Shown piece after piece: positions 2,263 through 60,712 of a DNA stretch of 64,000 nucleotides (positions are counted from its first letter, which is position 1; the number at the start of each line of letters is the position of its first letter). The notes beneath the pieces are model-generated. The model had not been told where the DNA came from, made no database searches, and saw only the letters and a list, made by a program, of their open reading frames with translations. The stretch comes from Leptolyngbyaceae cyanobacterium RU_5_1 (GTDB lineage Bacteria > Cyanobacteriota > Cyanobacteriia > Leptolyngbyales > Leptolyngbyaceae). The position numbers were made by a program, and so were the translations under genes. The stretch covers positions 1 through 64,000 of the forward strand of contig JAAUSG010000003.1 of assembly GCA_012034055.1 (NCBI GenBank). Reading direction: 5' to 3'.

Positions 2263-3229
2263 TTATCGTTCTGGTTCATTGCCAAGCCAGATTGCGACCA
2301 GTTCTGGTTGAGATTTCGGTGTAAAAACGCGGGTGGCGTGATAGCTAACTTTTTCTCGCAACCGATAGACCTGTTTCACATCCATGTCCAAAGCTTTTGC
2401 GATCGCTTCTTGAGAACGCCCCTGCAGATAGAGCCGCAACCAGTCCACTGCACGCGGATCCACCTTTTTCTCGACCAGGTAAGACTCAAACCTCTTCTGT
2501 ACGGCGCTGCGGAGTTCCTGCTGCTCCTCCGTTGCTTGAGCATCTTGATACTCAGCAACTGCGCGGGCATCCAGCAGGCTGACGGAACCATCAGCATCAT
2601 CGGGGGCAACCTCTTGGGAGACCAGGCGGATGAAGTCATCGGCAGGAACCTGAGTCATGCCGCCTTTTTGGTTACGCCGCAGGTAATTCACAAACCGGTA
2701 ACAAAGCAGCGGTTGATTCCGAATTGGGCGCAGGCAGTATTCTTCGACGCTGGCTAGCAAGAGTGCATTCCGCAAACGAGGGTCACGGGTGCATTGCGCA
2801 ATCCAGGCGGTCTGCTGCTGCATATAGCGATCGCTCTGCAGGAGCTCCTGGATAATTTCTTCCAGCACGTCTACCACGGTGCGCTGCGATCGCGTGAAAG
2901 TGCAATCCAGGTACGAATTTTGTTGCGAATCAGGAATAGGTTGCTAAGACGTTGAATCAAGCTTTGTAGGCACGCTCTGGCGACATTCCCAGGTAGCGTT
3001 GCCGCAGAATCCGGTAGCGATAATCCATCGCCTGCTCAACAATCTGCCGCTGTGTCGGGTTGAGATCAGTTAGACGAGTCGTGTCTTCTCCAATCAACCA
3101 TCGCACGATACTATCGCGGTTGACGGTGCTCTGGTCCGATAGCTCCGTTCGCAGTCGCGATCGCCATTCATCCGAAAAATTCTCAGACAGTGCCATTTCT
3201 TCAGCCAACATCATAAGTTGCTGCCCCAC
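2263..3229 (-). pseudogene. HetZ-related protein 2-like gene split over three frames by two 1-base deletions
   Basis: The N-terminal piece (3229-2957, 90 aa, with RDSIVRWLIGEDTTRL and YRYRILRQRYLGMSPERAY) and the C-terminal piece (2877-2263, 204 aa, with CLRPIRNQPLLCYRFVNYL and YLQGRSQEAIAKAL) together match the order of cyanobacterial HetZ-related protein 2 as I remember it. The missing middle is readable in a third frame between them (SLIQRLSNLFLIRNKIRTW, then IALSRDR). Restoring one A in the run at about 2963-2965 (minus strand AAA to AAAA) and one C directly after the GCGATCGC at 2886-2893 (minus strand) joins everything into one frame of about 320 codons. HetZ family members are DNA-binding regulators of cell differentiation in filamentous species; this paralogue is widespread and its role is unclear. 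The C-terminus is shorter than the homologues I recall. The breaks may be sequencing errors. Confidence 0.8.
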
Positions 3230-3673
3230 AGTTCTAACTACCCTGCTATAGAGTCTGCATCACAACCCTAATCCAGCGCACTCACCCGCACGGGTAAAAT
3301 CTGGGCTAGGGATTGTAACGAAGCCTGCATCAGTCGGGAAGGTGCCCAGCCAGAGGAGTAGGCATCTGGCTAGCTCTGTTAGGAGTCATTACTTGCCATT
3401 GGATAGCGTTGTACTAACCTTATCCGAAATTGTTGATGATTATATTGCTTGCAGGCATGTTTAGAAGACGCGCGCTCCAGACAATACTTAACTTTTACAA
3501 TTCCGTATTACCCAACCTTTGCTTTATCTTCCTCTACTTTTAATCTATTCCCCTGATTTTTTCGACACCCGGATTGGGTATCTATGCAAGGGGTCAGGTT
3601 TTAGGTGTCAGGTCGTTTTCTGAAACCCGAAATCTGGCACCTGACCCCTTGCGCGTCCTACCTCTTCCAGTCT
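3230..3673. other. Intergenic stretch without a recognised gene
   Basis: This 444 bp gap lies between the HetZ-like gene and aspA, both on the minus strand. It holds an AT-rich part at about 3420-3560 that could contain the HetZ-like promoter, and the large inverted repeat annotated separately at 3586-3652. No tRNA, ORF of convincing composition or riboswitch was seen. Confidence 0.6.
3586..3652. repeat. Inverted repeat with 14-bp perfect arms downstream of aspA
   Basis: The arms GCAAGGGGTCAGGT (3586-3599) and ACCTGACCCCTTGC (3639-3652) are perfect reverse complements around a 39-bp loop containing further related units (AGGTGTCAGGT, CTGGCACCT). The same GGGGTCAGG unit recurs at 17513-17522 and inside the insert at 59988, marking it as a dispersed cyanobacterial repeat. 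It begins 22 bp after the aspA stop and could act as a transcript 3' hairpin, although no T-run follows. Confidence 0.75.
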
Positions 3674-5089
3674 CTACTCCAATTCGGGCAATTGGCTCAT
3701 CTGTTTCAAATTCAGAACGTCTGCTAACGCTTCTGGTGTCATGAGTTGGCGCTCTAAGACAATCTCGCGGAGAGATTTGCCGGTTTCGAGGGACTCTTTG
3801 GCAACAGAGGCAGCATTGAGATAGCCGATATGAGGGTTAAGCGCGGTGACCAGCGCCAGACTTCCCTCTGCAAAGGACAAACAGCGATCGCGATTGGCCG
3901 TAATGCCTTCAATGCAGCGGTGGGTCAGAGCCGCCAGGGTATTGCCCAGAATTTCGATGCTGTGAATCAGGTCGTAGGCAATCAGGGGCATCATCACATT
4001 CAGTTCCAGTTGTCCAGCCTGGGCCGCGAGGGCGATCGCGCCATCATAGCCCATCACCTGAAAGCAAACCATCGAGGTCATCTCCGCCATGACTGGATTG
4101 TACTTACCGGGCATGATTGAAGAACCGGGCTGCACAGGGGACAGTTGGATTTCTTTCAACCCCGTTTTGGGTCCGGAGTCTAGCAGTCGCAGGTCGTGGG
4201 AAATCTTGGCACAATCCTGGGCCAGATTCCGTAACGCACCGGATACATTTACGAACGGAGCCATGCTTTGCATGGCCGCCATCAAATGGGGAGCCGGTCG
4301 CAGGGGTTGATCGATTAGCTCTGAGAGAATTTCGGCAACTCGGAACCGATACTTGGGATGGGTATTCAGTCCGGTTCCGGCAGCGCTACCCCCCAGTCCC
4401 AACAGCGTTAAATCCCCAGCCGCGGTTTCAATCCGAATCATATGTTCGCTGAGGATCTGGGCCCAGGCCCGGAAGTTTTCGCCTAAACGCACCGGAACAG
4501 CATCCTGCAGGTGGGTTCTGCCAGAGCGAATTACGTCTTGAAACTCCCGCCCTTTGTTTTCCAGAGCTGCGATCGCGCCTGAAAGCGCTGGATACAGGGT
4601 GCGCTCCAACGCCAGCAATCCACCAATCCGAATTGCGGTTGGAATCACGTCATTGGTCGATTGTCCATAATTCACATGATCATTGGGATTAACCCGCTTG
4701 TAGTTCCCCTTCTGGTCTGCCAATAGTTCCAAGGCCCGATTGGACAACACCTCATTCACGTTCATGTGATGCGACGTGCCCGCCCCTGCCTGGTACACAT
4801 CCACCACAAACTGGTCGCGCAGGTTGCCATTCAAGATCTCATCGGCTGCCTGCACGATCGCCTGACTGATGTCTTCAGGAATGCAGCCCAGTTCACCATT
4901 GGCGATCGCGGTTGCCTTCTTAATCAGCACGCAGGCATCAACATAGGTGGGCAGAGGCTTAATCCCGCTAATCGGGAAATTCTCTAAGGCTCGCAGCGTT
5001 TGAATCCCGTAATAGACAGTTTCGGGGATTTGCCGCTCTCCCATCGAGTCTTTTTCGATCCGGTATGCAACATTGGTCTGGTCTGTCAT
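3674..5089 (-). CDS. aspA: Aspartate ammonia-lyase (aspartase/fumarase superfamily)
   Basis: 471 residues, full length. The enzyme deaminates L-aspartate reversibly to fumarate and ammonia in the cytosol. The family signature is present as GSSIMPGKYNPVMAEM (about residue 325), with the catalytic serine loop; a tyrosine stands where many aspartases and fumarases have valine. Further conserved segments are AGAGTSHHMNVNEVLSNRA (about 106) and NYGQSTNDVIPTAIRI (about 140), both substrate-binding. A fumarase C assignment is possible from sequence alone, but the AGAGTS..MNVNEV form favours aspartase. It starts at the ATG at 5089; the methyltransferase gene ends only 17 bp upstream, so the two may be co-transcribed. 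Confidence 0.88.
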   Translation of the reverse strand: MTDQTNVAYRIEKDSMGERQIPETVYYGIQTLRALENFPISGIKPLPTYVDACVLIKKATAIANGELGCIPEDISQAIVQAADEILNGNLRDQFVVDVYQAGAGTSHHMNVNEVLSNRALELLADQKGNYKRVNPNDHVNYGQSTNDVIPTAIRIGGLLALERTLYPALSGAIAALENKGREFQDVIRSGRTHLQDAVPVRLGENFRAWAQILSEHMIRIETAAGDLTLLGLGGSAAGTGLNTHPKYRFRVAEILSELIDQPLRPAPHLMAAMQSMAPFVNVSGALRNLAQDCAKISHDLRLLDSGPKTGLKEIQLSPVQPGSSIMPGKYNPVMAEMTSMVCFQVMGYDGAIALAAQAGQLELNVMMPLIAYDLIHSIEILGNTLAALTHRCIEGITANRDRCLSFAEGSLALVTALNPHIGYLNAASVAKESLETGKSLREIVLERQLMTPEALADVLNLKQMSQLPELE

Positions 5090-5106
5090 GTCTTCTGCTG
5101 CCGTCC

Positions 5107-5724
5107 TTATTGAAGATTTCTTCCTTGCACATACACCGTCGAAACAGGCTTCATCATCTTCCGTTCCACTTTGATGTCTTTAAATCCAGCCGTTTCCAGA
5201 TAGTGTGTGAACCTTTCTCCTGCTTCAGTCGCATCATCTTCTGTAGCGCCAGGGATTCTGGGCTGGTGAACGAGGGCCAGGATTCCTCCCGTGCACAACT
5301 GCTCTCTTAGCCGTCTCAGCACGTCAGTCTTGTTATCCCAGAACTGAACGTTATTAACAGCCAGAATTTTGTCAAATGGGTCGTCGAAGGAGGGCAATTG
5401 CGATACCGAAGTGAGAACCAATCGCACTCTTCCAGCCGAAATGGCGCGTTTATTCCTTTTTGAAGCTTGCCTGAACATCACTTCAGAATGATCGATACCC
5501 CAAATAACACCGTGGATCACAATTTCACTCATCTTTTGGATCGTTACTCCAGGCCCGAAACCGATTTCCAGGACGCGGTCGGAGGGTTGCAGGTTCAGCA
5601 GAGAAATTGCCCACTCATTGCGTTCAAGATTTGATGGCCGATGGGCCATGATGAAGCCAACGATATTCCCAAAAAATCCTGTGGGACGAGCGAATTGTGC
5701 TACAACTCTCTCTACAAGGCTCAT
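5107..5724 (-). CDS. Class I SAM-dependent methyltransferase
   Basis: With the start at ATG 5724 the product has 205 residues. That start is chosen because AGGGAGG lies six bases upstream and the longer frame (to 5955) adds a Cys/Arg-rich stretch that does not look like protein. The Rossmann-type SAM site is visible: VLEIGFGPGVTIQKM (motif I), then WGIDHSEVMF, then KILAVNNVQFW (motif post-II/IV). The substrate is not identifiable; relatives act on small molecules or lipids (UbiE/ArsM-like fold). It lies 17 bp upstream of aspA on the same strand. Confidence 0.75.
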   Translation of the reverse strand: MSLVERVVAQFARPTGFFGNIVGFIMAHRPSNLERNEWAISLLNLQPSDRVLEIGFGPGVTIQKMSEIVIHGVIWGIDHSEVMFRQASKRNKRAISAGRVRLVLTSVSQLPSFDDPFDKILAVNNVQFWDNKTDVLRRLREQLCTGGILALVHQPRIPGATEDDATEAGERFTHYLETAGFKDIKVERKMMKPVSTVYVQGRNLQ

Positions 5725-6046
5725 AAGAAACCTCCCTAACCGTCTTGTCGGCAGAACACGAGCAAAACTTTTAAATCTGCCAATCCACTCAAGTCTGATA
5801 CGTTGGCAGTTTGGAAGTCTATACTTGGATCTCGTCTCAAAACATCTGCCACAATTGCCTGATTGAGATCTGCATCTGCCTGAAAGCGAACGCTCATAAT
5901 AATTAAGTCTTCCAAGCATCACGCAGCTTTTGATAAAAACTAACAATAGGGGCACGATACACCGTACCCCTAGCAGCGTTTAAGTAGCCAGCATGGATCT
6001 CACGAACGAGTTATCAGTTGTTCAAATACCTTATCCCTTTAACCCC

Positions 6047-6187
6047 CTATCCCAATGAGTAGGCAGAGCGGAGGGCCCACACAATCAGAATGCCGATGCT
6101 ACCCAAAATCAGCGTTGCTGAGATGGCGATCGCGATTGGGCTGTCGGCTCCATTAAACTTCATAATTCCACGATTCAGATCCGACAT
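6047..6187 (-). CDS. Small single-pass membrane protein
   Basis: With the start at ATG 6187 the product has 46 residues: a polar N-terminus (MSDLNRGIMKFNGADSP) and one membrane helix (IAIAISATLILGSIGILIVWAL). A GGGGAG sequence ten bases upstream supports this start over the longer reading to 6253. The size and shape are like low-molecular-weight thylakoid subunits, but I cannot match it to a named one. The family function is unknown to me. Confidence 0.55.
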   Translation of the reverse strand: MSDLNRGIMKFNGADSPIAIAISATLILGSIGILIVWALRSAYSLG

Positions 6188-6349
6188 ATGTTCAGGCTCC
6201 CCTTGTCCAGTTAACGCCGCTTTAATTCTAGCCAGGCTGAGAGCGATCCCCATCCCTGTTAAGGAATCTGTAACAGTTTTGCCATAATTCTTGCTGCAAA
6301 GCCAGTTTTATCGACTATCGTGGCTGCGTGGGGTCTGTGAGACTGCGAG

Positions 6350-8131
6350 ATGACACAGTCAAACCTTTTACAACTTGCTCAATCAGGAGATGCAGATGCG
6401 ATCGCGGCGTTGATGAATGCAAGCCTGCAGGCGATCGGGGTTTCGGCGAGGGCTGTGCTGCGCAATGGTGATTTGCACGTCCTGCTGGAGTCGGAACGGA
6501 TGCTGGCTCCGTCTCCCTCGATTGAGTTTATTCGTCGGGGAATCACTCGTCTGGGGCTGGCCTGGATTTCGTCAACGGTAGTCTACAGTCGGTTGGTGGG
6601 TCAAAGTTCCCCCGTTTGGGTGCAACAGGTTCAATTCAACGCTGCTGCCCTGTCCAATCCCTTTGTGTTAGATCCTGGTATTCGGTTACAGGTGGCTGGA
6701 GGGGAGGAAGCGCCTCTGCCACCCTGGTGGACTCAGGTCAGCCCGCTAACGCTAGCTCTGCTTTTGAGCGTTCCACTTGTCTTTCTACTCAGCAGTAGTA
6801 TCATCTGGTCTCGATATTTGTCGGGAGGCAACCCGACGGAACTGGCTAGTTCACCTCAGACCTCATCAGCATCGGCCAAAACGGGAGTAAAACCCGACAA
6901 GGCTGCAGCGGCTAAAGCTGACCCAGTTAGCAACGCCATGAGTTTTGGCAAACAGGCCTACTTGCTCGGCAAAACCGCCAGCTCAGAGCAGGACTGGCGC
7001 AAGGCTGTAGAACACTGGCGTCAGGCGATCGCCCTCCTGCAAGCGATACCAGATTCCCATCCGAAAGCCGCGATCGCGCAACAAAAGCTGGCAGAGTATC
7101 AGGGGCACCTGGATTACGTCCTCCGCGATCGCCTGGGTGCCTCTGGGATGGAGCTGGTCAAAACGATTACGGGCAGCATTTCACCAAAATCGATCGTCCA
7201 TTCTGGCAAAGGACTCTTCTTTGCCCAGAACATGATGTATAGCCACAGCATCACGGTCTACGATCGCCAGTACAACCTGCTCAAAACCATTTCTGACGAA
7301 GTTAAGCTGTCTGACTACGGCTACTCCCAGTACTCCGGGACTCAGCATGGTGCCCCGGTGGAAGCAGACTTTAGCCCGGACGGTCAAACCGCCTGGGTCT
7401 CGAACTATCAAATGTATGGCGCAGGGTTCAGCAATTCTGCCGACGATGACTGCAGCCCCGAACAGAATCATGACCCGAGTTTCCTGTATCGAATCAACAC
7501 CCAAACCCTGACCATTGAACGGGCCGTGCAGGTCGGAGCGGTTCCTAAGTACGTGGCCACAACGCCTAACGATCGCTACGCCTTGGTCAGTAATTGGTGT
7601 AGTTGGGATGTCAGCGTAATTGACACCCAAACCAATCAAGAAGTGCGCCGGATTCAGCTTGGTCCTTATCCGCGTGGCATTGCCGTAGACAAAAAATCTG
7701 AGACAGCCTATGTCGCCGTCATGGGATCCTACGATATCGCCGCCATTAACCTGAACAATTTCTCAGTAGACTGGCTGCGCGACATGGGCCACTCACCCCG
7801 CCATCTCAACCTCGATCCCGCCGGAAAATATCTTTACGCCACCCTCAATGGTGAAGGCCAGGTCGCCAAGATTGACGTAGCCAGCAAAACCGTCGTCAGC
7901 AAAATCGCCACCGGCAATGCTCCCCGCAGCATGGCGATTTCTGCAGATGGTCAATTCCTCTATATCGTCAACTACGACTCCGACACCGTGAGTAAAGTCA
8001 GCACCTCAACGATGCAAGTGGTTAAAACGGTCAGCGTCAACTCTGCCCCGATCGGGATTACCTACGATGCTGAAACGAATCAGGTCTGGGTCGCCTGTTA
8101 CTCCGGCAGCATCCAGGTGTTTCAGGATTGA
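6350..8131 (+). CDS. Membrane-anchored YVTN beta-propeller protein
   Basis: 593 residues. Residues 1-115 form a cyanobacterial N-terminal domain (MTQSNLLQLAQSGDADAIAA, then MNASLQAIGVSARAVLRNG) seen in front of several membrane proteins. One transmembrane helix follows (about 130-152, LALLLSVPLVFLLSSSIIW), then a Ser/Ala/Lys linker, a short TPR-like helical segment (about 205-250), and from about 265 a YncE/YVTN-type propeller: repeated blades such as APRSMAISADGQFLYIVNYD and PYPRGIAVDKKSETAYVAVM. Propellers of this kind bind ligands or partners; no enzymatic residues are evident. The blade region would lie outside the cytosol if the helix is a simple anchor. It is convergent with the next gene (21 bp gap). 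Confidence 0.75.
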   Translation: MTQSNLLQLAQSGDADAIAALMNASLQAIGVSARAVLRNGDLHVLLESERMLAPSPSIEFIRRGITRLGLAWISSTVVYSRLVGQSSPVWVQQVQFNAAALSNPFVLDPGIRLQVAGGEEAPLPPWWTQVSPLTLALLLSVPLVFLLSSSIIWSRYLSGGNPTELASSPQTSSASAKTGVKPDKAAAAKADPVSNAMSFGKQAYLLGKTASSEQDWRKAVEHWRQAIALLQAIPDSHPKAAIAQQKLAEYQGHLDYVLRDRLGASGMELVKTITGSISPKSIVHSGKGLFFAQNMMYSHSITVYDRQYNLLKTISDEVKLSDYGYSQYSGTQHGAPVEADFSPDGQTAWVSNYQMYGAGFSNSADDDCSPEQNHDPSFLYRINTQTLTIERAVQVGAVPKYVATTPNDRYALVSNWCSWDVSVIDTQTNQEVRRIQLGPYPRGIAVDKKSETAYVAVMGSYDIAAINLNNFSVDWLRDMGHSPRHLNLDPAGKYLYATLNGEGQVAKIDVASKTVVSKIATGNAPRSMAISADGQFLYIVNYDSDTVSKVSTSTMQVVKTVSVNSAPIGITYDAETNQVWVACYSGSIQVFQD

Positions 8132-8151
8132 TGAACTAAACATCGCCAAAG

Positions 8152-8574
8152 CTAGACTAGAGGTATAACAGCAAGCAATTTATACCAATTTTCGCCTAAC
8201 CACGCAGCTGTATTAGTGACTGGTTTTTTTAGTTTCTCAATTACTTCAACAAAGCCTTGAGCTTTCTTAGCGTAGTTAAGTGCTCGATCCAAAGCCCCAC
8301 CAACTTCGTCTTTGTCCGGTTTTGGTTTTTTTAGTTCCTCTTCCGCATCGTTGAGAGCGTTACTAATTTTTCCACGATCATCTGTCTCTAAAGCAGCTAG
8401 GATTTCGCGTAATCTGTTCAGTTCAGTCGCAATATCGACATCCTTTGGATCAGGTAAACTGACTTGAGACTGCACGTTAGACATCTGCTGATTTATAGCT
8501 TGTCCGACTGCAAACTGACTGCTTACATTTCCTATATCTCCTATGCTGATATTTCCCTGTTCAGATGCTGCCAT
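8152..8574 (-). CDS. Small protein with N-terminal G/hydrophobic motif and helical domain
   Basis: 140 residues of unknown function. Residues 11-29, IGDIGNVSSQFAVGQAINQ, closely match the C-terminal end of the protein encoded just upstream (10 of 19 identical, most of the rest conservative). Residues about 45-120 are charged helices (LNRLREILAALETDDRGKIS, then DAEEELKKPKPDKDEVGGAL). The C-terminus, AAWLGENWYKLLAVIPLV, is hydrophobic and may insert in a membrane. I recall this helical module at the ends of other bacterial multidomain proteins, where it looks like a signalling adaptor, but no role is established. The gene is 65 bp downstream of the FHA-like gene on the same strand, so the two are probably one operon. 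Confidence 0.6.
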   Translation of the reverse strand: MAASEQGNISIGDIGNVSSQFAVGQAINQQMSNVQSQVSLPDPKDVDIATELNRLREILAALETDDRGKISNALNDAEEELKKPKPDKDEVGGALDRALNYAKKAQGFVEVIEKLKKPVTNTAAWLGENWYKLLAVIPLV

Positions 8575-8639
8575 TTGATTCTCCCAATTTGTTGTAAATT
8601 CATGTAACCCTACTAAAGGCCGTACTACTAAGTTGTCGA

Positions 8640-10616: not shown

Positions 10617-10816
10617 ATGAATCCCCCATAGTCACGCCACAGAGTATCGTATGCTGCGTCAATCTTTGGGTGGTTTTGCTACATTTTTTTACATTTAAAG
10701 TTATTTTTGCATATTTAATGCGATATATGGTTCTGGCAGGATTTTGCGATTTGTTTGCTAGTACACAGCACATATCCTGAGCCGACTACGCCGCGACACT
10801 TCTAACTTTATTACTT

Positions 10817-12802: not shown

Positions 12803-12909
12803 GCAATTTCAACTGTGTAGGCAATTAGATCAATTTGATGTTGCTGAATGAACTGAAGGAAGCCAGTTTTCTTATCGGCAGGATCAACTCGGTGGTAGTG
12901 TTCTCCTAA
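12799..12909 (-). pseudogene. C-terminal remnant of an unidentified gene abutting a MITE-like repeat
   Basis: On the minus strand about 36 codons are open up to the repeat at 12910 and end at TAA (12801-12799). They read GEHYHRVDPADKKTGFLQF followed by IQQHQIDLIAYTVEIA, which looks like real protein (the end of an alpha/beta fold). There is no start codon, and the reading runs into the repeat element, so this is probably the tail of a gene whose front was lost. It overlaps the stop of the preceding plus-strand gene by four bases. Confidence 0.4.
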
Positions 12910-14472: not shown

Positions 14473-14490
14473 AAGTCCGAAGTCTGAGAG

Positions 14491-17670: not shown

Positions 17671-19390
17671 GTGCAACGACCTTCCATTCGCCAAATTCAT
17701 CCCTTTCCGTTCCTCCTCGCTCTAGGACTGATTGCCTGTCAGGCAGAGCAGCCTGAACCGACTCGTCCTGCTCCATTGCCCCAGGATAAGCAGATTCAGG
17801 TCTATACGAACCATGAACCGGCATCAAGCTACACAGAGCCGTATCGGAAATACACTCGTGATGGCGATAACCTGGAACAAATTATCATTGAGGCAATCTC
17901 CACAGCCCAGTCAATGGTTGATGTAGCGGTACAAGAGTTGCGCTTGCCTGGAGTTGCCCAGGCGTTGGTGGAACGGCACCGGGCCGGGGTAAAGGTGCGG
18001 GTGATTCTGGAAAATACGTACTCTCGCCCCTTTAGCCAATTCATGTCCGAGGAGGTAACCGCATTACCCCAACGCGATCGCGATCGCTACAACGAAGCTC
18101 GGCAGCTTATTGACCTGAGCGGCGACAATCAGCTTGGGCCGGATGAAATCAATCAACGGGATGCGCTGGTTATCTTAGATAACGCCAACATTCCTCGAAT
18201 TGACGACACGGCAGATGGCTCCGCAGGCAGCAACCTGATGCACCACAAATTTCTGCTGGTAGATGGGCGGACTGTGATTGTGACCTCGGCTAATCTGACC
18301 ACGAGTGATGTGCATGGTGATTTCAAGTCGCCCAGTAGCCGGGGCAACGCCAACAATTTGCTGAAAATTGAGAGTCCAGAGTTAGCGCGCTGTTTACGCA
18401 AGAGTTCAACCTGATGTGGGGAGATGGACCGGGTGGCAGACCCAATAGCCAATTCGGAGTCAAGAAACTATTTCGTCCCGCCCGTCAAGTAACGATCGGC
18501 TCATCTGTGGTTGAAGTTCAATTTTCGCCAACTTCCAATTCAATCCCGTGGGAGCAAAGCAGCAATGGTCTGATTGGTAAAACGGTGAACATTGCCACCC
18601 AGTCAATTCAAATGGCACTGTTTGTCTTTTCCGATCAACCTCTGGTTAATCTGCTGGATGCAGTTCACCAAAAAGGGGCTGATATTAAGGCTTTGATTGA
18701 TCCTGGGTTTGCCTATCGTCCCTACAGTGAAGCACTGGATATGTTGGGCATTACGCTGGCAGAGGATTGTCGGTATGAGCCAAGTAATCGTCCCTGGCAG
18801 CGTGCGATCGCTCTGTTGGAGTGCCCCGGATGCCGCCCGGCGATCTGCTCCACCACAAATTCGGGATTGTAGACCAGAAAATTGTGATCACAGGCTCCCA
18901 CAACTGGACTGCTGCTGCCAATACTGGAAATGATGAAACCGTCTTAGTCGTTCATAATCCAACGGTTACCGCTCACTATCAGCGCGAGTTTGAGCGACTT
19001 TATACCAATGCCATTCTGGGAATTCCGCCTGCCATCCAGAAAAAGGCAGAGGCTCAAGTCCGGCAATGTCAGGTGGCGCGTTCAGCCTCTACTGCACAAA
19101 CTCAGGCTGCAAATCGAAATTCAGCAGTCCCACAGCGTGTACCAGCTCCGTCCTCAACGGCTCCATCAAACTTGCCTCGCTCGGCTGCCAATTCGCCAAG
19201 TCAGCGAGTGAACCTCAACACAGCAACCCAGGCAGAGCTAGAAGAATTACCGGGTGTCGGACCCGGTTTGGCGAAACGAATTATTGCTGCTCGTCAACAG
19301 AAGCCATTCAGCTCTCTGGCAGACCTCGATCGCGTCTCTGGCATCGGCCCCAAGTTGCTAACTAAGCTGAAAAACCGAGTTACCTGGTAA
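17671..19390 (+). pseudogene. Secreted phospholipase D-like protein with helix-hairpin-helix tail, two frameshifts
   Basis: Three overlapping frames (17671-18414, 18414-18872, 18821-19390) make one protein. The start is a lipoprotein signal with lipobox LIACQ (residue 24). Two phospholipase D HKD motifs follow: MHHKFLLVDG (about 190) and LLHHKFGIVDQK in the third frame. Between the halves of domain one lies an EF-hand-like calcium loop, DLSGDNQLGPDE. After a Ser/Pro/Ala linker comes a ComEA-type helix-hairpin-helix pair (VNLNTATQAELEELPGVGPG) that binds DNA. The order suggests an exported nuclease of the PLD family. One C is missing after GCGCGC at 18390, and one base after the GCGATCGC at 18804-18811; restoring both gives a single reading frame of about 570 codons. 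These breaks may be sequencing errors. Confidence 0.85.
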
Positions 19391-21193: not shown

Positions 21194-22194
21194 TTAGGGA
21201 GGAGCAGGACGCTGAGTTCGAGGTGACCGTTCTTGAAGTTGAGCGATCGTCGCTCGAATTTTGGGGGTTGCAAGTAGTTTTTGGGTGTCTTCCAGCAAGC
21301 GATCGCCCCACAGATTCTCCTTCAAAAACTTGATGTCAGCATAGCTACTATCCAGGCGAATAGCGGCTTCTCCCTGCGATACCCCCTGTTCGCGATCGCC
21401 TTTAGCGTACAACGCGACTGCAATGGCGAGACGAGGTTCTGCAGCTTTCGGGTCAACTTCAGCGGCGGACTGCCAATGCCGCATTGCCTCGTCCACCTCT
21501 CCAGTCTCATACTTAATTAGCCCGATGTTGTTCATCGCTGGCCAGAATTTTTTGTCCTCGGCGATCGCTTTTTCGTATTCGGCGATCGCGGCTGGAAACT
21601 TGCGTAGCATCAGGTAGGCGTTTCCCAAGTCGAACATCGCACCCGTCGAATTTGGCTTAATTTTCAAGCCCTCCTTAATATAGTCAACGGCGGCAGCATA
21701 CTTGCCCTGCCGAAAGTGGGCAGAACCAAGAGCAAATAAAACGGCTGAGTCCTTACCATCCATCGACTGAGCTTTTGCAGGGCAGTAATGCCGTTATCCA
21801 AATCATTGGTTTGCAGATAAAGCCCACCGACCAGTTTCCAAACTTCTACGCTCTTGGGAGCAAGCTGCGTGGCTAGCTTGGCTCGTTGCAAGGCGAGTTC
21901 GTACTGCTGAAACTGGGCCAACTGGGAAGCTTCCTGGGCCAAACTGATCCCCTGCCGCTCTAGTTTTGTTGTATCTAACCGCAGGGTGTGAGGAATCAGG
22001 GCTTGACCAAAAGCAGGTGGAGCAATTCCCCACAAACTAACAGCAATTAGGACGGGTAAGAAAGAAATACGGTTCGACACGGTATGTTTTCGAGAAAACG
22101 CAAAGTACTGATAGCTTAGTCGATTTGAGTTCCATAGTGGTATAAATCTGACTAAATACCAGGAAAACCCGGACGATTTAACCCTTGTCCACAT
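21194..22194 (-). pseudogene. Secreted TPR protein, one frameshift
   Basis: Two frames join into one protein. The upstream part has a signal peptide (SFLPVLIAVSLWGIAPPAFG); a GTG at 22080 (VSNRIS) is a likelier start than the ATG at 22194. At least six tetratricopeptide repeats follow across both frames, for example LALQRAKLATQLAPKSVEVW and FALGSAHFRQGKYAAAVDYI. The break lies at the A-run at 21773-21776 (minus strand CAAAAGCT): with one more A the text reads LQKAQSMDGKDSA in frame. TPR repeats mediate protein contacts, probably in the periplasm. The break may be a sequencing error, since the repeats continue without loss on both sides. Confidence 0.75.
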
Positions 22195-44808: not shown

Positions 44809-46121
44809 ATGTTGAACCATTGGAGATGGAAAATTCAGCATGTGGAACTCAGTGGAAAACTACCTGATTTGTCTTCTCAGCCTGAATGTGATGGCATATT
44901 TGTTGTTTTCTGGTGGCACCATATTCCACTGGGATACCAGGAGATTTTAGCGCAGCAGTTGCCAGTGCCTGCCAGTCAACTAGTGACCATAGCGGTGCAA
45001 ACGATCGCGCCAACGGTTGGTGACCACTTATTTGCACACGGCTTCAAGGCATCCTTACCAGGCATCTCTACTACTCTGCTTTCTCGACCGGATCGACCGC
45101 CGAATTTTCAAGCATTAATGGCATTGAAAACCCCTTTAGCAGAGCTTGAGCAGCGCTGGGCACACGTTCAGGACTCAATCATGGAGGAATCGGTGTCTGT
45201 AGTGATTTGTACCCGCGATCGCCCCCAGCAATTAGAGAAGTGTTTGCGATCGCTCCAGCAACTCTCTCATCCAGCTGATGAAATCCTGGTAGTTGACAAC
45301 GCGCCAACCTCCAATGCAACTCAACATTTGGTAGAACAAATGCCCACTGTGCGCTATGTGGTAGAACCGCGTCCCGGTCTGAGTGTGGCGCGTAACACAG
45401 GTATCCGCTGTGCCAAAGGCAGCATCATCGTCTTTACAGATGACGACGTAGAAGTTCACACCGACTGGATTGCCCGGCTTCGATACGGCTTTCAAGATCC
45501 AAACGTGATGGTTGTCACTGGGCTAATGTTCCTGCAGAATTGGAGACAGAAGCTCAGGTTGCCTTTCATCGCGGTACATCTGGATTTAAATGGGAATGTC
45601 GTCCTCTAGTATTTGACTCGCACTATTTTGAGGCAAAGAAGCCCTTTGGTGTTCCTGTCTGGCAAATTGGTGCTGGAGCCAACATGGCGCTGCGTCGAAA
45701 GGTTGTAGAACTCGTTGGCGACTTTGATGAACGGTTGGGGGCCGGAGCGTCTGGATGCAGCGAAGATTCCGAATTCTGGTATCGTGTGCTTGCTGCAGGA
45801 TGGTTGTGTCGATACGAGCCAACGGCTGTGATTTACCACTACCACCGTCGAACGATGGATGCTTTGAAGCAGCAGATGTATGCGTATATGCGTGGGCATG
45901 TAGCTGCATTGCTGATTCAGACGACGAAATTGCACCATCTGGGAAACTTATCCCGTCTGCTAGTCAGTTTGCCAAAGTACTACGCTCGATTGATTGTACG
46001 AGGGATAATCAGTGGTTTTCACGGTCGCTACCGCACCATCGCTGTGGAACTTCTGGGCTGCCTGTCAGGAATTAGGTTCTTTCTGCGACATTGGTCAACT
46101 CCCGCTACGGAGGTCGGCTCT
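44809..46121 (+). pseudogene. Family 2 glycosyltransferase, one frameshift, no own stop in frame
   Basis: The first frame (44809-45609) holds an N-terminal domain and the GT-A nucleotide site: SVVICTRDRPQQLEKCLRSL (about 128), VVDNAPTSNATQHL, FTDDDVEVHTDW. The second frame continues with ETEAQVAFHRGTSGFKWECR, GAGANMALRRKVVELVGDF and GCSEDSEFWYRVLAAGW, a close parallel of the previous gene. Adding one C at 45531-45532 (TTCC to TTCCC) gives FPAELETEAQ and one frame. The second frame then runs without stop into the methyltransferase that starts at 46122 with its own ribosome site, so the exact end of this gene is uncertain. The break may be a sequencing error. Confidence 0.75.
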
Positions 46122-46909
46122 ATGTACAAAAAACCGTTGAACGATTTTTTAGCCTGCAATCCTTTTTCCCGTCCCTTCACTCAGGGATTCTTTTACCGGG
46201 AGAAGATGCGGGCGATTCATGCCATTGCGCCCGATCGCCCCTTGCAAAACATTCTGGAAATCGGTGGTGGACAGGGTGGATTAACCGCCCTCCTCTATCC
46301 CCAAGCCCAGATTACAAACCTGGATCTCGATCCTCAATTTGCCCAGGCTGCCTGCAATCAGCAATCGAATGTGCAGTTTGTGCGTGGTGATGCCACCAGG
46401 CTGCCCTTTGCGGATGCCTGCTTTGATGCCGTCACCTGTTCGATGTGCTGGAGCATATTCCCGACGATCGCAAAGCCGCCTCCGAAGCCTTACGAGTCCT
46501 GAAGCCGGGTGGATTTCTTCTGATCAGTACGCCCAATGAAAATTGGCGTTTCCCGTACTACCCAATCATGCAGCCAATCTGCCCGACGGATGCAGACGTA
46601 ATGGCGGCGTGGGGACACGTTCGACGCGGATACACCCTGGCTGAACTAACCACTCTGATTGGGTTACCCTGCCAGAAATCCGCCACGTTCATTAATCCGC
46701 TCACGGTGCTGTGTCATGACATCGCGTTTTCAAAATTGCCAGCGTTGCTGCGTGAATTACTCTGCCTGCTCCTGAGTCCAATGACCTGGCCCAGCTACTG
46801 GTTGCATCAGCCTCAAGCTCAGGGAACTGAAACGGCTGCTGCCTGGGAGAAACAGATGACTAAACAATCTGAATACGCAAGGAGTCAGGCAAGTTGTCTC
46901 AGCCATTAA
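46122..46909 (+). pseudogene. SAM-dependent methyltransferase of the polysaccharide cluster, one frameshift
   Basis: ATG 46122 has GGAGG eight bases upstream. The product starts MYKKPLNDFLACNPFSRPFT; the SAM motif is NILEIGGGQGGLTALLYPQA, then ITNLDLDPQFAQAA and RGDATRLPFADACFDAVTC. Adding one T at 46439-46440 (TGTTCG to TGTTTCG) restores VTCFDVLEHIPDDRKAASEA and LRVLKPGGFLLISTP, typical motifs IV-VI, ending at 46909. It probably methylates a sugar in the product of this cluster. Because the motif order is perfect on both sides of the break, a base-calling error is likely. Confidence 0.75.
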
Positions 46910-50060: not shown

Positions 50061-50066
50061 TGCTTT

Positions 50067-50711: not shown

Positions 50712-50916
50712 GAGTGCAAATGCTAGTGGGGTAGATGCAAAATCTTTGCTGACGTAGCCCTAAAACAGTTGGAAAGCAACCCTAATCCATTATCAACGAT
50801 CGCGCTCAACCTGCCTCAACCTGCGCTTCAGAACCTGCCGATCTTGAGTAGCTAATCATCAACCACCCCTTTTCAGCTACGCCGGAGGGCGATCGCTCCA
50901 ACAATCAATCTTAAGA

Positions 50917-51204
50917 TTGATGCCTAGTTTGAAAGGCGATGCCACGGTAATGGATAACTGTTCAAGCAGTCAACTTCCATTGGTGAAGCCCATGCTAGTG
51001 TCCACGGTTAAAACAACTGTCTTTTCAGTGTATAAAACAGAGTGTGCGATCGAGCTACATTCGGGCTGCAACCCTCGGATGGATACTCGGCTCATCTCCA
51101 CCCATCGATCCTACGACGATGCCTGCAACTTTGCTGAATTTTTGGCTGTAGAAGTCGAGCTGCCGTTGAAGAACTTCACCCAAGAGCGATCGCGCAATGT
51201 CTAG
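50917..51204 (+). CDS. Hypothetical small protein
   Basis: 95 residues, or 84 from the internal ATG at 50950 (MDNCSSSQLPLVKPMLVSTV). No domain is recognised. The middle, TVFSVYKTECAIELHSGCNP, and the end, SYDDACNFAEFLAVEVELPL, look like a small alpha/beta protein and composition is normal for coding DNA. It lies between repeats-free spacers and 58 bp before crtD. Confidence 0.45.
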   Translation: MMPSLKGDATVMDNCSSSQLPLVKPMLVSTVKTTVFSVYKTECAIELHSGCNPRMDTRLISTHRSYDDACNFAEFLAVEVELPLKNFTQERSRNV

Positions 51205-51262
51205 CCGCCCAACCAAGAACCTTTTAAGATGACAAGAGAAGTTAAGAAACGTAAAGGTTCTT

Positions 51263-52927: not shown

Positions 52928-53085
52928 CGTGAAATCCTGTCTACACAACTTACCCCTACAGAGAACGTCCATCACCAGATAATCTACAGGTGTCCATTTA
53001 TTTCCCAAAGCCGGTTACGTGTTTGCCAGGAAAATCCTATACTTTTGTGAAGTTGAAAAAATGTGCAGTGTAGATAGGAGTACAG

Positions 53086-54561: not shown

Positions 54562-54740
54562 ACCTTGTCCACGTCCAGACCGGAAGTTTGCTTGCTGTAA
54601 ATTTTTCGGTGCTGCAGGGCAGGTTTTGCCAAAGATCTAGGCTGAGATACGCAGATTGTTGACTAAACCTGCCCCTACCAAGATCCTCCATCACCAGAAA
54701 ATTTACAGGTGGGAATCTTTCGCAGAAATCGCCTAAGACC
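54562..54740. repeat. Composite repeat region downstream of glgA, MITE family copy C
   Basis: The region is built of parts found elsewhere: CCTTGTCCACGTCCAGACC (54563-54581; near-identical at 22189-22207), GGCAGGTTTTGCC and AAACCTGCCCCTACC (shared with 20330-20393), CCATCACCAGAAAATTTACAGGT (54688-54710; close match at 52970-52990) and AGAAATCGCCTAAG (54724-54737; end sequence of copies A and B). The left terminal repeat is missing. No ORF. Confidence 0.65.
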
Positions 54741-54885
54741 GAGCTTATCGAGCAGCTTGATAAGGGTTGTTCGGACGAAAATTACCCGTGTGGGCACCTT
54801 TGAGATTCTGGAATTGAGAGGAGTTATCTTGAATTAACCTACAGTTAGGTAATTTAGCCCCACTTTTCCATAGGCAGGTCTACTC

Positions 54886-55209
54886 ATGACAACAGATGCA
54901 ATTGCTTTCAATTCACAGGTATCCGACTCTATTCACTCAGCCCCTCCTGCTGGTGCATTAATCACCCCAAAGCAACCGGCAGATTGTGTTGACGAAGATG
55001 TTTTTGATTGGAAACGAATCGATTCTTTAAAGTTTGTGATTCAAGTTTGCTTAAGCGTGGTCATCCTGGGACTGTGTATCGGCAAACTCACCGTCGGTTC
55101 GCAATCAGACAGTGATAAAGCCCTGTATTGGGGTGGAATTACTGGGCTTATCGCCTGGTGGATGCCGAGTCCGAGTATTACTCGAAGTGCAACCAAATCT
55201 GAGAAGTAA
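54886..55209 (+). CDS. Small two-helix membrane protein
   Basis: 107 residues. A soluble N-terminus (about 1-45) is followed by two likely membrane helices: FVIQVCLSVVILGLCIGKLT (about 53-73) and ALYWGGITGLIAWWMPSP (about 84-101). The layout, with GSQSDSDKALYWGGITGLIA between, recurs in uncharacterised cyanobacterial proteins. No function is known. Confidence 0.6.
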   Translation: MTTDAIAFNSQVSDSIHSAPPAGALITPKQPADCVDEDVFDWKRIDSLKFVIQVCLSVVILGLCIGKLTVGSQSDSDKALYWGGITGLIAWWMPSPSITRSATKSEK

Positions 55210-55235
55210 CTGCCAAATAACCGCGATCGCTTCAC

Positions 55236-56135
55236 CTACCGATACAACGCCTCTGCATGATGGCGGATATGGTCTTCCATAAAGGTAGCAATGAAGTAAT
55301 AGCTGTGATCATAGCCGGGCTGCATTCTCAGGATGAGGGGCTGTCCGGCTTTTGCACAGGCTTGCTCCAAAACGTCTGGCATGAGTTGCGTTTCGAGAAA
55401 GGAATCGGCAGTTCCCTGATCAATTAAAATTGGGCGGTTTTGCAGCGACGTTTGATCCCGTTCTGCGGCCGTTTGCACCAATTCGCTGGCATCATATCTT
55501 CGCCACGCTTCTGGGTTGGGCCCTAAGTAATTTGTGAATGCTTTTTGTCCCCAGGGGCAGCGCATCGGAGCTGCGATCGCGGCGAAAGCAGAAACAGAGC
55601 GGTAGCGGTTGCCATTGCGCAAGGCACACAACAGCGCACCATGCCCACCCATCGAATGCCCAAAAATGCCCTGACGGTCTGACTCCACTGGGAAATGTTC
55701 AGCGATCAGAGCGGGCAACTCCTCCACCACGTAGCTGTACATTCGATAGTGCTGGCTCCACGGTTCAACCGTTGCGTCTACATAAAACCCAGCTCCCGTC
55801 CCAAAATCCCAGTCCTGATCTTCACCCGGAATTCCCGTATTTCGAGGACTGGTATCCGGTGCCACCAGTATCAAGCCGTGTTCAGCAGCATAGCGCTGCG
55901 CGCCTGCCTTCACCATAAAGTTCTCTTCCGTACAGGTTAAGCCGGATAAGAAGTACAACACCGGCAGCGATCGCGATGCGGCTTGCGGGGGTTGATACAC
56001 CGCAAATTTCATTGCACTGTTGCAGGCAGTGGACTGATGGCTATAGAAGCCCAGAGTTCCACCAAAACAAGCGTGTTGACTAACGAGATTGGGAGATTGC
56101 GCCATGAGAATTCTTGCTAACGAGTTGTCATTCAT
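55236..56135 (-). CDS. S-formylglutathione hydrolase (esterase D family)
   Basis: 299 residues, or 289 from ATG 56105 (MAQSPNLVSQHACFGGTLGF), which better fits homologues; neither start has a clear ribosome site. The enzyme hydrolyses S-formylglutathione to formate in formaldehyde detoxification. The oxyanion and nucleophile segments are intact: LPVLYFLSGLTCTEENFMVK, RNTGIPGEDQDWDFGTGAGF, GIFGHSMGGHGALLCALRNG (nucleophile Ser, about 155), and a late PGYDHSYYFIATFMEDHIRH with the catalytic histidine. No linked formaldehyde dehydrogenase gene is present here. Confidence 0.9.
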   Translation of the reverse strand: MNDNSLARILMAQSPNLVSQHACFGGTLGFYSHQSTACNSAMKFAVYQPPQAASRSLPVLYFLSGLTCTEENFMVKAGAQRYAAEHGLILVAPDTSPRNTGIPGEDQDWDFGTGAGFYVDATVEPWSQHYRMYSYVVEELPALIAEHFPVESDRQGIFGHSMGGHGALLCALRNGNRYRSVSAFAAIAAPMRCPWGQKAFTNYLGPNPEAWRRYDASELVQTAAERDQTSLQNRPILIDQGTADSFLETQLMPDVLEQACAKAGQPLILRMQPGYDHSYYFIATFMEDHIRHHAEALYR

Positions 56136-56284
56136 CCAGTTTGGGGAATGCTAGAAGCCATCGGTTCTGCATTACAGGCATTTTCGCAAATGCTTTTTAA
56201 GCCGCGATCCGAATGCTGCCATCGGGAGTGATATGCTTCCTTCAGCACGATTCAAGACATGGCGTAAACAACTTTCTGCATCCC

Positions 56285-56629
56285 ATGCGTAACCCCAAGT
56301 TATTCCTCATCCTCTTCTTCGTTACCCTACTCATCGTTGTCTCTGGTGCGTTTCTGGTTACGGCAGGGCGAACGGTTGGACAGTCGATATTTGGCAGGGA
56401 CTTTGCTGAGGGTCAACTAAAAGACTACGTAGCCGCCGTGCTGAAACAGGAAATCAATGGTGCCCGATGTCAGGCAGTGGATACAGACGGAAACGGGTAT
56501 GTCTCTTGTGACTACACTACTACCGCGCAGCCAAACACACCGCGATCGATTGAATGTGCGGCTTGGGGACTGGATGGATTTTTCAACCGGGGCTGCAAAA
56601 CTCGCGTTCCCGGCTTTCCATCCAACTAA
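56285..56629 (+). CDS. Small secreted or membrane-anchored hypothetical protein
   Basis: 114 residues from ATG 56285. This start places a signal/anchor directly at the front (NPKLFLILFFVTLLIVVSGA); the longer frame to 56213 adds an unlikely leader. The exported part has four cysteines in GARCQAVDTDGNGYVSCDYT and ECAAWGLDGFFNRGCKTRVP, which probably form two disulfides. No family is recognised. Confidence 0.55.
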   Translation: MRNPKLFLILFFVTLLIVVSGAFLVTAGRTVGQSIFGRDFAEGQLKDYVAAVLKQEINGARCQAVDTDGNGYVSCDYTTTAQPNTPRSIECAAWGLDGFFNRGCKTRVPGFPSN

Positions 56630-56688
56630 ATTACCGGCGGCAGACGCCTCGTCCCCACTGCCATCGATGCTAAAACTTACGCATTGCG

Positions 56689-57189
56689 CTAACCCTTTGA
56701 CTGATCACCGATACCCTTTACTTGACGCATCAGGCTTGCCATCTCCAGAGCACTCATGGCATAGGTCCAGCCTAGATTGCTCTTAATCCCTGCTCGTTCT
56801 AAGGCTTGCTGCATCGTATCGGTGGTCACAATGCCAAAAATGACGGGAATGCCAGTCTGCAGTCCAGTTGCCGCAATCCCTTTGGAGACCTCAGCCGCAA
56901 CGTAGTCAAAGTGAGGCGTTTGCCCGCGAATGACCGCTCCTAAGCAAATGATGGCATCGTAGCGATCGCTGAGTGCCAGTTGACGAGCGACAAGAGGAAC
57001 CTCAAAGCTGCCAGGCACCCAAGCATAATCAACCTGGCTGCCCTCCGGATTAACATCGACACCATGACGCTTGAGGCAGTCCTGACAGCCTTCCAACAGT
57101 TTGGTTGTAACTAAATCATTAAAGCGACCAATGACGATCGCAAACCGAAACGAGTCGGTGTGAGTGAAAGTACCTTCAAAAACTGCCAT
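56689..57189 (-). CDS. ribH: 6,7-dimethyl-8-ribityllumazine synthase
   Basis: 166 residues from ATG 57189 ([20 protein letters not shown]). This start is preferred over the longer frame to 57219. RibH makes the riboflavin precursor lumazine and forms a 60-subunit shell or pentamers. Conserved segments: [35 protein letters not shown] (substrate loop), [20 protein letters not shown] with the catalytic histidine, and [17 protein letters not shown]. It is encoded downstream of psbZ on the same strand, an order common in cyanobacteria. Confidence 0.95.
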
Positions 57190-57296
57190 AGCTGCTAATA
57201 ATAATCCCGTGACCCACACGATTATAGGCTCACGGGACTGGGATAATCTTATTTGCGTTTGTAATGATGGTTAGAAACTGGTTCTAAATGCTCTGT

Positions 57297-57485
57297 TCAC
57301 ACAACCAGGAAGTTCAGTACACCCAGCATAATTACTAGAGCGGCCCAGGTTGCAGAACCTAAGAACACAAAACGACGAGATTGATCCCAGTTTTGAGGGG
57401 TTGCTAGAGCAACGGGTGTACCAACAACCAACACGAAAGACAAGAAAACGAAGGCAGCTAGAATAAGGTCAAACAAGATTGTCAT
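57297..57485 (-). CDS. psbZ: Photosystem II protein PsbZ
   Basis: 62 residues from ATG 57485, which has GGGAG eight bases before it and matches the family start MTILFDLILAAFVFLSFVLV. Two membrane helices are separated by GTPVALATPQNWDQSRRFVF; the second is ATWAALVIMLGVLNFLVV. PsbZ (Ycf9) is a peripheral subunit of the photosystem II core near CP43 in the thylakoid membrane. ribH follows after about 107 bp. Confidence 0.95.
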   Translation of the reverse strand: MTILFDLILAAFVFLSFVLVVGTPVALATPQNWDQSRRFVFLGSATWAALVIMLGVLNFLVV

Positions 57486-59010
57486 GTTTGCATCTCCCAA
57501 TACGGCAATAAAGTAGGTGAGTAGAGTTAACCATTAACCTATCAGAAAATTGAGCCGAAATGTCATTTGTCATCAGTCATTCGTCCTTTGTGACGGAAAT
57601 GGCGAGCGGCAGAGATGAGGAGATGGGGAGGTGGGGAGAACTCTTCGTGTCTCCGTGTCTCCTCTCGCTTCCCCTGACCCTGACCCTTGACCCATGACCA
57701 ACCTCAAGAATCTCATCCTGTGTCACACAACGGCTGATTTCGACACGCTGGGGGCAGCGGTTGGGTTGACGCGTCTGCAGCCAGGAGCACGGATTGTACT
57801 GACGGGTGGGACACACGCTGCAGTCAGGGATTTTTTGGCATTGCACCGGGATGAGTATGCGTTGATTGAACGGCGATCGGTGAATCCAGAGCAGGTGCGA
57901 TCGCTGACGGTCGTAGACACCCAACGTCGTGTTCGATTGGGCAAGGCGGCAGAATGGCTGGATTTGCCGAATGTGGAGATTTCGGTATATGACCATCATC
58001 TCGACCTGGAATCAGATATTCAAGCAACCCACACCCACATTGAAAAGATTGGAGCAACAACTACTCTAGTTGTAGAAATGCTTCAGCAGCGGGGAGTTAC
58101 GCCGACGCCGATTGAAGCAACGGTGATGGCGTTAGGAATTCATGTGGATACCGGGTCGTTGACCTTTGACCATTCCACAGCGCGAGATGCAAAAGCGTTG
58201 GCGTGGCTGATGGAACAGGGAGCCAGTTTACGCGCGATCGCGGACTACATCGACCCTGGCTTGTCTCCTCAGTTACAGCAGCTTTTGACGGAGGCACTGG
58301 AAGCCCTGCAAACTGAAACACTCCAGGGGCATACCCTGGCGTGGGTGCTACTAGAGGTAGACGAGTTTGTTCCTGGGCTGTCGAGTTTAGCTTCGCGCTT
58401 AATTGACCTGACTGAAATCGATGCCCTGCTGCTGGCGGCACGGTATGGTCAGAAGCCTGACGGAGATGGGGATTCGCTCAGCTTGATTGGGCGATCGCGG
58501 ATTGACGATACCGATCTCAACGAACTGTTCAAACCCCTGAGTGGTGGTGGGCATCCCCGTGCTGCCGCTGCAAACCTGCATCAGGTTGATGCTGAGACGA
58601 TCCTGGCAAACCTGGTCAGTCAACTGAAGGCGCAACTCCCCCAGCCGCCAACGGCTAGAGAGTTGATGTCCTCGCCCGTGCGCACCATCCGTCCCGAAAC
58701 GACAATTGACGAAGCCCAGCGTATCCTGCTGCGCTATGGGCACTCCGGACTTTCAGTGGTAGACGCAGATGGTAAACTGGTCGGCGTCATCTCCCGCCGC
58801 GACCTGGATATCGCTCTTCACCACGGCTTCAGCCATGCCCCCGTCAAAGGGTACATGACCACCAACTTGAAGACCATCACCCCAGAAACCCTGCTGCCCG
58901 ACATTGAATCCCTGATGGTAACCTACGACATCGGTCGGTTGCCCGTTTTAGATCAGGGAGATCTGGTTGGGATTGTGACTCGCACGGATGTGCTGCGACA
59001 GCTTCATAGA

Positions 59011-59089
59011 CCGGGGAGCAGGGGGCAGGAAACAGGGGACAAGGGTGTAATTCAAAATTCAAAATTCAAAATTCAAAATTCAAAATTCC
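59011..59089. repeat. In-frame repeat insertion between the CBS and nucleotidyltransferase domains
   Basis: A GGGGAGCAGGGGGCAGG-type run (59011-59044) is followed by five perfect tandem ATTCAAA heptamers (59050-59084). It encodes about 26 residues including [12 protein letters not shown] and has no stop. It sits in the linker between two domains, where extra length is tolerated. Confidence 0.85.
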
Positions 59090-59986
59090 TCACTCTTCTA
59101 CGCCAATGTCTTGTTCCTGAACAGTGGAAGCTGCTTACGCTTGCAGCACAACAGGCGCAGGAGCGAGGCTGGCAGCTTTTTCTGGTGGGGGGAGCGGTGC
59201 GAGATTTACTGCTGGCAACGTTAGAGTCAAGAGCGGACACAACAGGCAAGCTGCTGATTGAAGATATTGATTTAGTCGTAGACGGGTTTCATCGGGCGGC
59301 TGATGTGGGAGCGGGGGTGGAATTGGCGCGATCGCTGCAAGCGCTCTATCCTGAAGCTCGTTTAGAAGTGCATGGCAAATTTCAAACCGCTGCGCTGCTC
59401 TGGCACAACGATCCCACTTTCAAATCCCTTTGGATAGACATCGCCACCGCCCGCACTGAGTTTTATCCTTACCCAGCCGCCAATCCAGAAGTAGAAGCCA
59501 GCTCGATTCAACAAGACCTTTACCGACGAGATTTCACTATCAACGCCCTCGCCGTTCGCTTGACGCCGCCTCGTGCTGGGGAACTACTGGATTTCTTTGG
59601 GGGTGTGTTGGATTTGCAGGCAAATCAGATCCGCGTGCTGCACGCCAACAGCTTCATTGAAGACCCGACCCGCATCTACCGGGCAGTCCGCTTTGCCGTG
59701 CGGCTCGGCTTCCAGATCGATGCCCAAACTGAGGGATACATTCGGCACGCGATCGCAGCGGCATTTATCAGCAGATTCAAACCCGCACCGATCTAAGCTT
59801 CCGTGCTCCTGCCTTACAAACCCGCCTGAAGGCAGAACTCAAATATATCCTGCAGGCCCCCTATTGGAAACCCGCCCTCAAATTCCTGGCAGATCTGGGA
59901 GCCTTACAGTGCATCCATCCCACCCTGACGCCCGATCGCGACCTCTGGCGACAACTCCGACTCGCAGAGCGCTGGCTGAAGTGGAA

Positions 59987-60105
59987 CAGGGGTCAGGAGT
60001 CAGGGGAAGCAAGAGGAGGACACGCAGACACGCAGACACGCAGACACGCAGACACGGAGAAGACTCAATCTTCAATCTTCAATCTTCAATCTTCAATTTC
60101 CCCTC
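59987..60105. repeat. In-frame repeat insertion in the C-terminal RNA-binding part
   Basis: The order is AGGGGTCAGG units, then ACACGCAG x4 plus ACACGGAG (60020-60059), then CAATCTT x4 plus CAATTTC (60066-60100). About 40 codons are added between LAERWLKW and PSAWLLRLEVLLA, without a stop. This is the same composite layout as the insert in crtD. Confidence 0.85.
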
Positions 60106-60586
60106 ATCCCTCTGCCTGGCTCCTCCGGCTTGAAGTCCTCCTCGCCCACTTAGCCCCAGAGTATCGAGGCGGTGTGGCAGAAAATCTGCAGCTACCCGCA
60201 GATAGTATTGAGCGATTAAATCATTTGGGGTTGGCTCAAGCGGAGGTGACCGAAGTTCTACCAAAGCGCCAGACGCCAAGTCAAGTCGTGCAACTGCTGA
60301 GGCAATATGACATGACGATGTTGGTACTGATCGCAATTTGCAGCCACTCCGCACCGCCAACCCTGAGCACGAACTTCCCCCTTCGTAAAACAATTTGGCA
60401 ATACCTGACTCACTGGTCTGCAATCAAATCTCCCCTTGATGGGAGTGACCTGAAGAGATTGGGGTATAAGCCTGGCCCGCGGTTCAGGCAAATTCTGGAT
60501 GCGTTAACAGCAGCGACTCTGGATGGCTTAATTACCAATCGCGCCAGTGCTGAGGCATTCCTTGAACAAGCGTATCCTGAGAAAAC

Positions 60587-60712
60587 CTAGCACTCCGCCC
60601 AGACAGCGAACAAGACAACCAACAAGACCGTGAAGATCGATACGGGCGCGATCGAGGGCGCAGTGTCACAAGCCAGCTTGAATCCATTCTCGATCACTTT
60701 TACAGTACCCAT
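60587..60712 (-). CDS. Possible 41-residue single-helix membrane protein
   Basis: From ATG 60712 the frame reads MGTVKVIENGFKLACDTAPS and IAPVSIFTVLLVVLFAVWAE with a final Cys and TAG at 60589-60587. It has a polar head and one hydrophobic helix like the low-mass thylakoid proteins, and lies 39 bp downstream of the beta-glucosidase gene on the same strand. No ribosome site is evident and I do not recognise the family. Its stop overlaps that of the convergent nucleotidyltransferase gene. Confidence 0.4.
   Translation of the reverse strand: MGTVKVIENGFKLACDTAPSIAPVSIFTVLLVVLFAVWAEC

Follow-up and report, generated by a model that had tools for sequence, protein, structure and literature searches.

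Residual single-base deletions are known from indel-prone sequencing (i.e. nanopore, PacBio CLR, Ion Torrent and 454). As far as excerpts of the published reports go, the rate of Ion Torrent deletions climbs with homopolymer length (PMC4053816), methylation is named as an error source alongside homopolymer deletions (PMC11649196), and modification-mediated nanopore errors have been described that are mainly mismatches, not deletions, at GCAGC or GCTGG (PMC10687267). An excerpt of a further report adds that, in most cyanobacteria, HIP1 is accompanied by methyltransferases for CGATCG and GATC (PMC4390886). The deletions described here resemble those of indel-prone sequencing, as excerpted (PMC11649196, PMC4053816), in being single-base, deletion-biased, mostly in or beside runs, and located in unrelated genes; they differ in that several runs have a length of just 2-3 bases and in showing an excess at one octamer, HIP1. 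They resemble the modification-mediated nanopore errors of the PMC10687267 excerpt in clustering at a methylatable motif, and differ in being deletions and in that the methylation core alone does not seem to be enough. A literature search, which gave access to parts of the sources, found no description of HIP1-linked deletions; its sources included excerpts of PMC4390886 and PMC9239245.

The window, the whole stretch of DNA analysed, consists of bases 1-64000 of a 74,937-base contig and belongs to a 5.6 Mb genome in 382 contigs with a completeness of 87.84%. Among the genomes searched, none was of the same genus and 41 others were of the same family. HIP1 (GCGATCGC) occurs in 99 copies in the window, vs about one by chance, and in 7,945 copies in the genome. 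Eight window sites, read as one-base deletions in an earlier note on this DNA, were studied by frame-aware protein-to-DNA alignment against homologues from relatives of the same family. We found that at 8/8 sites a codon is short of one base (a net deletion) relative to properly oriented homologues, which have the full codon. Hence, the reading of these sites as one-base deletions was correct, and they are given below with their window coordinates, strand and supporting relatives.

2886..2894, minus strand: one-base deletion at a HIP1 edge in a HetZ-like gene (2263-3229), at 2888; 10/10 relatives
2960..2964, minus strand: second one-base deletion in the HetZ-like gene (2263-3229), at 2962; 10/10 relatives
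18384..18391, plus strand: one-base deletion in a phospholipase D-like gene (17671-19390), at about 18385-18388; 6/7, then 3/3 relatives
18804..18814, plus strand: deletion at or near a HIP1 edge in the phospholipase D-like gene, at about 18810-18813; 6/7, then 3/3 relatives; phase break at the HIP1 at 18804
21772..21779, minus strand: one-base deletion in an A run of a TPR gene (21194-22194), at 21774-21777; 4/6, then 3/3 relatives; coding-phase break at 21774
45524..45534, plus strand: one-base deletion in a family 2 glycosyltransferase gene (44809 to about 46090), at 45526; 5/5 relatives
46435..46441, plus strand: one-base deletion in a methyltransferase gene, at 46437; 5/5 relatives; phase break
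59749..59757, plus strand: deletion at a HIP1 edge in a DHH-CBS-tRNA nucleotidyltransferase gene (57694-60590), at 59755; 9/9 relatives; phase break

The seventh relative for the phospholipase D-like gene and the other two for the TPR gene were wrong-strand readings, and an extra event at 3216 (weak, one relative) was left out of the counts. Protein homology, which had been said to resume perfectly on both sides, did resume directly after each site, with high identity on both sides at most of them. Since homologues cover 25,873 window bases, the window may contain more than eight deletions.

At three sites (2886, 18811 and 59756), the missing base had been placed directly after HIP1, and this placement held for two of them. 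At 2886, the HetZ-like gene reads CGC GAT CG_ CAG here vs CGC GAT CGC CAG/CAA in 7/10 relatives, and the relatives have GCGATCGCC in 7/10 and GCGATCGTC in 3/10 cases. At 59756, we found GCGATCGCC in 7/9 relatives, GCGATCGCT in 1/9 and GCGATCGCG in 1/9. Judged from these alignments, the base lost directly after GCGATCGC at 2886 and 59756 was most likely a C. Since 3/10 relatives have GCGATCGTC at 2886, the HIP1 now present there could itself result from the loss. At 18811, a C after HIP1 is a sensible reading, and the alignment also permits a position 2-3 bases further. The deletion at 18390 was confirmed as well, while the C thought to be lost there after GCGCGC is not placeable to the exact base; the same holds for the lost bases at 45532 and 46440. 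Since ATG stands in the relatives at 46440, the loss of an A is no less possible there than that of a C. The five sites other than 2886, 18811 and 59756 lie within or beside short runs. HIP1 sites thus make up 3/8 of the deletions; in the sample, 2.9% of the covered bases lie at most 5 bases from a HIP1.

Beyond the eight sites, a homology test was applied to 41 stretches of the genome (566,741 bases, window included) against the ORFs of relatives, with a filter that removed events with flank identity <0.55, overall identity <0.5, <20 flanking codons or gaps nearby. In the 145,180 bases covered, this left 21 deletions and 2 insertions; of the finished relatives, G013 had no deletion and 1 insertion (125,100 bases) and G022 had 1 deletion and 2 insertions (101,259 bases). 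Hence, the filtered rate is significantly higher here (23 events/145,180 bases vs 4/226,359 in the two finished relatives, p 1.1e-6), and the events are biased toward deletions (21/23, p 6.6e-5). The 21 deletions include 7/8 window sites, the filter having removed site 45532 despite its 5/5 relatives. When the flank criteria were tightened, 19 deletions and 2 insertions remained here, vs none in G013 and 1 deletion in G022. Unfiltered, there were 33 clusters here (29 deletion-type and 4 insertion-type), 6 in G013 (3 and 3) and 13 in G022 (6 and 7), many of those in the relatives adjoining long gaps or poorly matching stretches in the printed alignments. An earlier homology pass, run with fewer references, covered 109,888 bases here and gave 24 clusters, vs 0 in G013 and 4 in G022; it held one HIP1 deletion in L084, which the later pass excluded for low identity. 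The claim that bases are never inserted was borne out at the eight sites and failed genome-wide, where 2/23 filtered events are insertions.

Runs of up to 6 bases were roughly as common here as in the relatives, and only runs of at least 8 bases looked fewer, which counts against assembly error as the source of the deletions; the sequencing platform is not identifiable from these homopolymer spectra. Internal repeats, used as an error check, yielded five pairs of at least 88% identity, too little for use: one of 97.5% without gaps, one of 96.7% with two one-base gaps, and three within L079 of 91-92% with mixed gaps. HIP1 was in none of the gap contexts shown for these pairs.

Under the names of their relatives, the genes with deletions outside the window are leuS (leucyl-tRNA synthetase), NAD kinase, NuoH/NdhA (NADH dehydrogenase subunit), IlvD (dihydroxy-acid dehydratase), an EF-G (elongation factor G) family gene, an M1 aminopeptidase (two deletions), a glycosyltransferase with an MGDG-synthase domain, and genes for a GTPase, a HEAT-repeat protein, a cyclic-nucleotide-binding protein and a transporter. 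The sole filtered one-base insertions, L065:18216 and L075:7023, are also outside the window, in a CofD family gene and a glutathione reductase gene. These names cover all 16 outside events except L079:19470 and L196:6814.

In a whole-genome search, leuS was above the cut-off on C335 only, in two pieces and two frames that join at C335:5268; the weaker matches on C52 and C149 probably belong to other synthetases of class I. Leucyl-tRNA synthetase is an enzyme indispensable to the cell. Since the sole leuS found is split, the break is almost surely in the sequence file, and pseudogenes in a living cell are much less credible than an error of the assembly. There is a small gap in this argument since the assembly is incomplete and a second leuS could be absent from it. 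Together, the rate, the deletion bias, the broken sole leuS and the completeness support sequencing or assembly error, as the earlier note had proposed. Hence, we conclude with high confidence that the deletions arose as errors in the assembled sequence and not by mutation in the organism, and the broken genes are almost certainly a property of the sequence file. The data behind the assembly would under-call short runs, mostly by dropping one base, at an estimated 0.15 events per kb in conserved genes.

Real pseudogenes arising at a mutational hot spot at HIP1 would account for the excess of deletions at this octamer (below), but this is a very unlikely reading: the only leuS found and conserved housekeeping genes are broken, protein identity is high on either side of most sites, few such events occur in two relatives with similar HIP1 content, and the window genes are intact in the aligned relatives. 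Recoding by which the sites are read through, such as programmed frameshifting, would explain why protein homology picks up directly past each of them. However, the codon is complete at the corresponding position in the relatives, the genes are unrelated and their contexts differ, with no common slippery site by eye, and 0.15 events per kb would imply hundreds of recoded sites; we consider this scarcely credible at all.

Since the idea of a HIP1 context arose in the window, it was tested outside the window. We used a coding-phase test that compares the phase on the two flanks of each HIP1 and needs no homologues, and we found a deletion-type break at 15/358 classified HIP1 sites outside the window and an insertion-type break at 0. 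In comparison, three relatives (among them G012, which was a control in this test and no target in the homology test) had 4 deletion-type and 1 insertion-type breaks among 1011 HIP1 (vs 15/358, p 1.9e-6), and control sites shifted by 400 bases had 3/397 breaks (vs 15/358, p 0.0017). Inside the window, breaks were at 2/61 HIP1 sites and 2/48 shifted sites, and a wider setting with the window included gave 13/370 vs 2/462. Compared with homologues, the 15 outside breaks were 2 confirmed, 2 due to a nearby event, 2 without an event and 9 uncovered; without the 4 doubtful breaks, the count is 11/354, which still differs from the relatives (p 1.5e-4). A version with tight thresholds classified 18 HIP1 sites, had 0 breaks, and was replaced. 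A change-point scan, which is noisy, gave 0.113 deletion-type breaks per kb off gene boundaries here vs 0.052, 0.017 and 0.031 in the relatives, with a HIP1 within 20 bases in 3/24 cases here (4.6% expected) and 0/26 in the relatives.

Outside the window, homology-placed deletions are only suggestive of the same excess, with 2/14 within the HIP1 zone (p 0.03-0.12 by zone width, and p 0.007 only with edge bases alone and these two deletions placed by eye). With the window included, this zone holds 5/21 (p between 4e-5 and 2e-3 as its width is varied from 2 to 10 bases). Hence, an excess of deletion breaks at HIP1, the context proposed in the earlier note, is supported, mainly by the coding-phase tests. 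The share of coding HIP1 sites affected is about 2-4% (5 events per 233 covered HIP1; 15/358).

We reasoned that, had a C of GCGATCGCC or a G of GGCGATCGC been lost, broken sites would more often be without a C/G run at the edge. As expected, with the window included, breaks were at 13/174 sites with no edge run, 4/209 with one and 0/36 with two, so 13/174 for no edge run vs 4/245 for any (p 0.003); the doubtful phase breaks are part of these counts. This pattern fits GCGATCGCC under-called as GCGATCGC. The base lost at HIP1 would usually be the edge C of GCGATCGCC (on the opposite strand, a G), as the earlier note had read it at two of its sites. A count of GCGATCGCC, proposed earlier as a check, is uninformative: its share of 0.321 is mid-range in the family (0.067-0.455), so there is no bulk depletion, and such a count would miss the loss of a few percent.

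The cause is presumably technical, and HIP1 may fare worse than other places through modification or through palindrome folding during sequencing, either of which could produce the bias. We compared CGATCG, GATC and other control motifs, excluding those at most 160 bases from a HIP1. CGATCG outside HIP1 had breaks at 1/253 sites, 229 of the 253 having a C or G that continues HIP1 on at least one side; hence, a methylated core alone would seem insufficient, although base callers may respond to a wider context. GATC outside CGATCG had a mild excess, with 12/539 here vs 13/2148 in the relatives. The whole octamer had 17/419 breaks vs 1/229 for half-sites (p 0.004).

Methylation of CGATCG (m5C) or GATC (m6A) might disturb a native-DNA sequencer such that the neighbouring C is dropped, and we regard this as a live but tentative account of the HIP1 part. 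It fits the HIP1 excess, the mildly raised GATC, and the presence in the genome of one C5 cytosine methyltransferase-family gene (open frame, C123:11850-12908; putative specificity). The excerpted literature also agrees, in that CGATCG and GATC methyltransferases accompany HIP1 across cyanobacteria (PMC4390886), modification-mediated nanopore errors are published (PMC10687267), and methylation is an error source (PMC11649196). The 1/253 for CGATCG outside HIP1 and the predominance of mismatches in the PMC10687267 excerpt argue against it. The contigs looked at were 3.8-92 kb, so long reads are not evident. Hence, in naming methylation with long-read base calling as the cause, the earlier note went further than the 1/253 and a longest contig of 92 kb among those looked at allow.

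The HIP1 part may equally, and just as tentatively, come from GGCGATCGCC and its relatives folding or stalling in an indel-prone, possibly amplified, platform, with CC read as C. An excess at the whole octamer and none at half-sites points to this, as do the sites that keep a C/G edge run being broken less often, and contigs of the size looked at would fit mid-length reads. To our knowledge, frequent deletions in 2-base runs are untypical of indel-prone platforms, which counts against it. The climb of Ion Torrent deletions with homopolymer length (PMC4053816, in excerpt) is in its favour. A true in vivo deletion hot spot in this lineage, with the edge C missing from a few percent of GCGATCGCC sites in some members of the population and minority alleles caught in the consensus, perhaps via faulty methyl-directed repair at HIP1, is highly improbable.

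With assembly error as the preferred explanation, this genome, and perhaps other cyanobacterial drafts made likewise, would have false pseudogenes and a falsely low completeness, with HIP1 as the place where false breaks gather. Were modification the cause, methylation might be read out of old drafts by mapping such errors; otherwise, HIP1 would offer a good test case for errors linked to palindromes.

Some further features of the window genes were seen. The DHH-CBS-tRNA nucleotidyltransferase gene has short repeats at 59008-59098 and 59987-60100, which are also on other contigs of the genome and in part in relatives and are apparently linker insertions. A second PolyA_pol head domain is in an open frame elsewhere (G000:C294:3044-3382), so tRNA nucleotidyltransferase activity need not rest on the broken window gene. 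The glycosyltransferase-methyltransferase pair (44809-46909) has close homologues in only 5/41 of the other family genomes, where the two genes are also adjacent.
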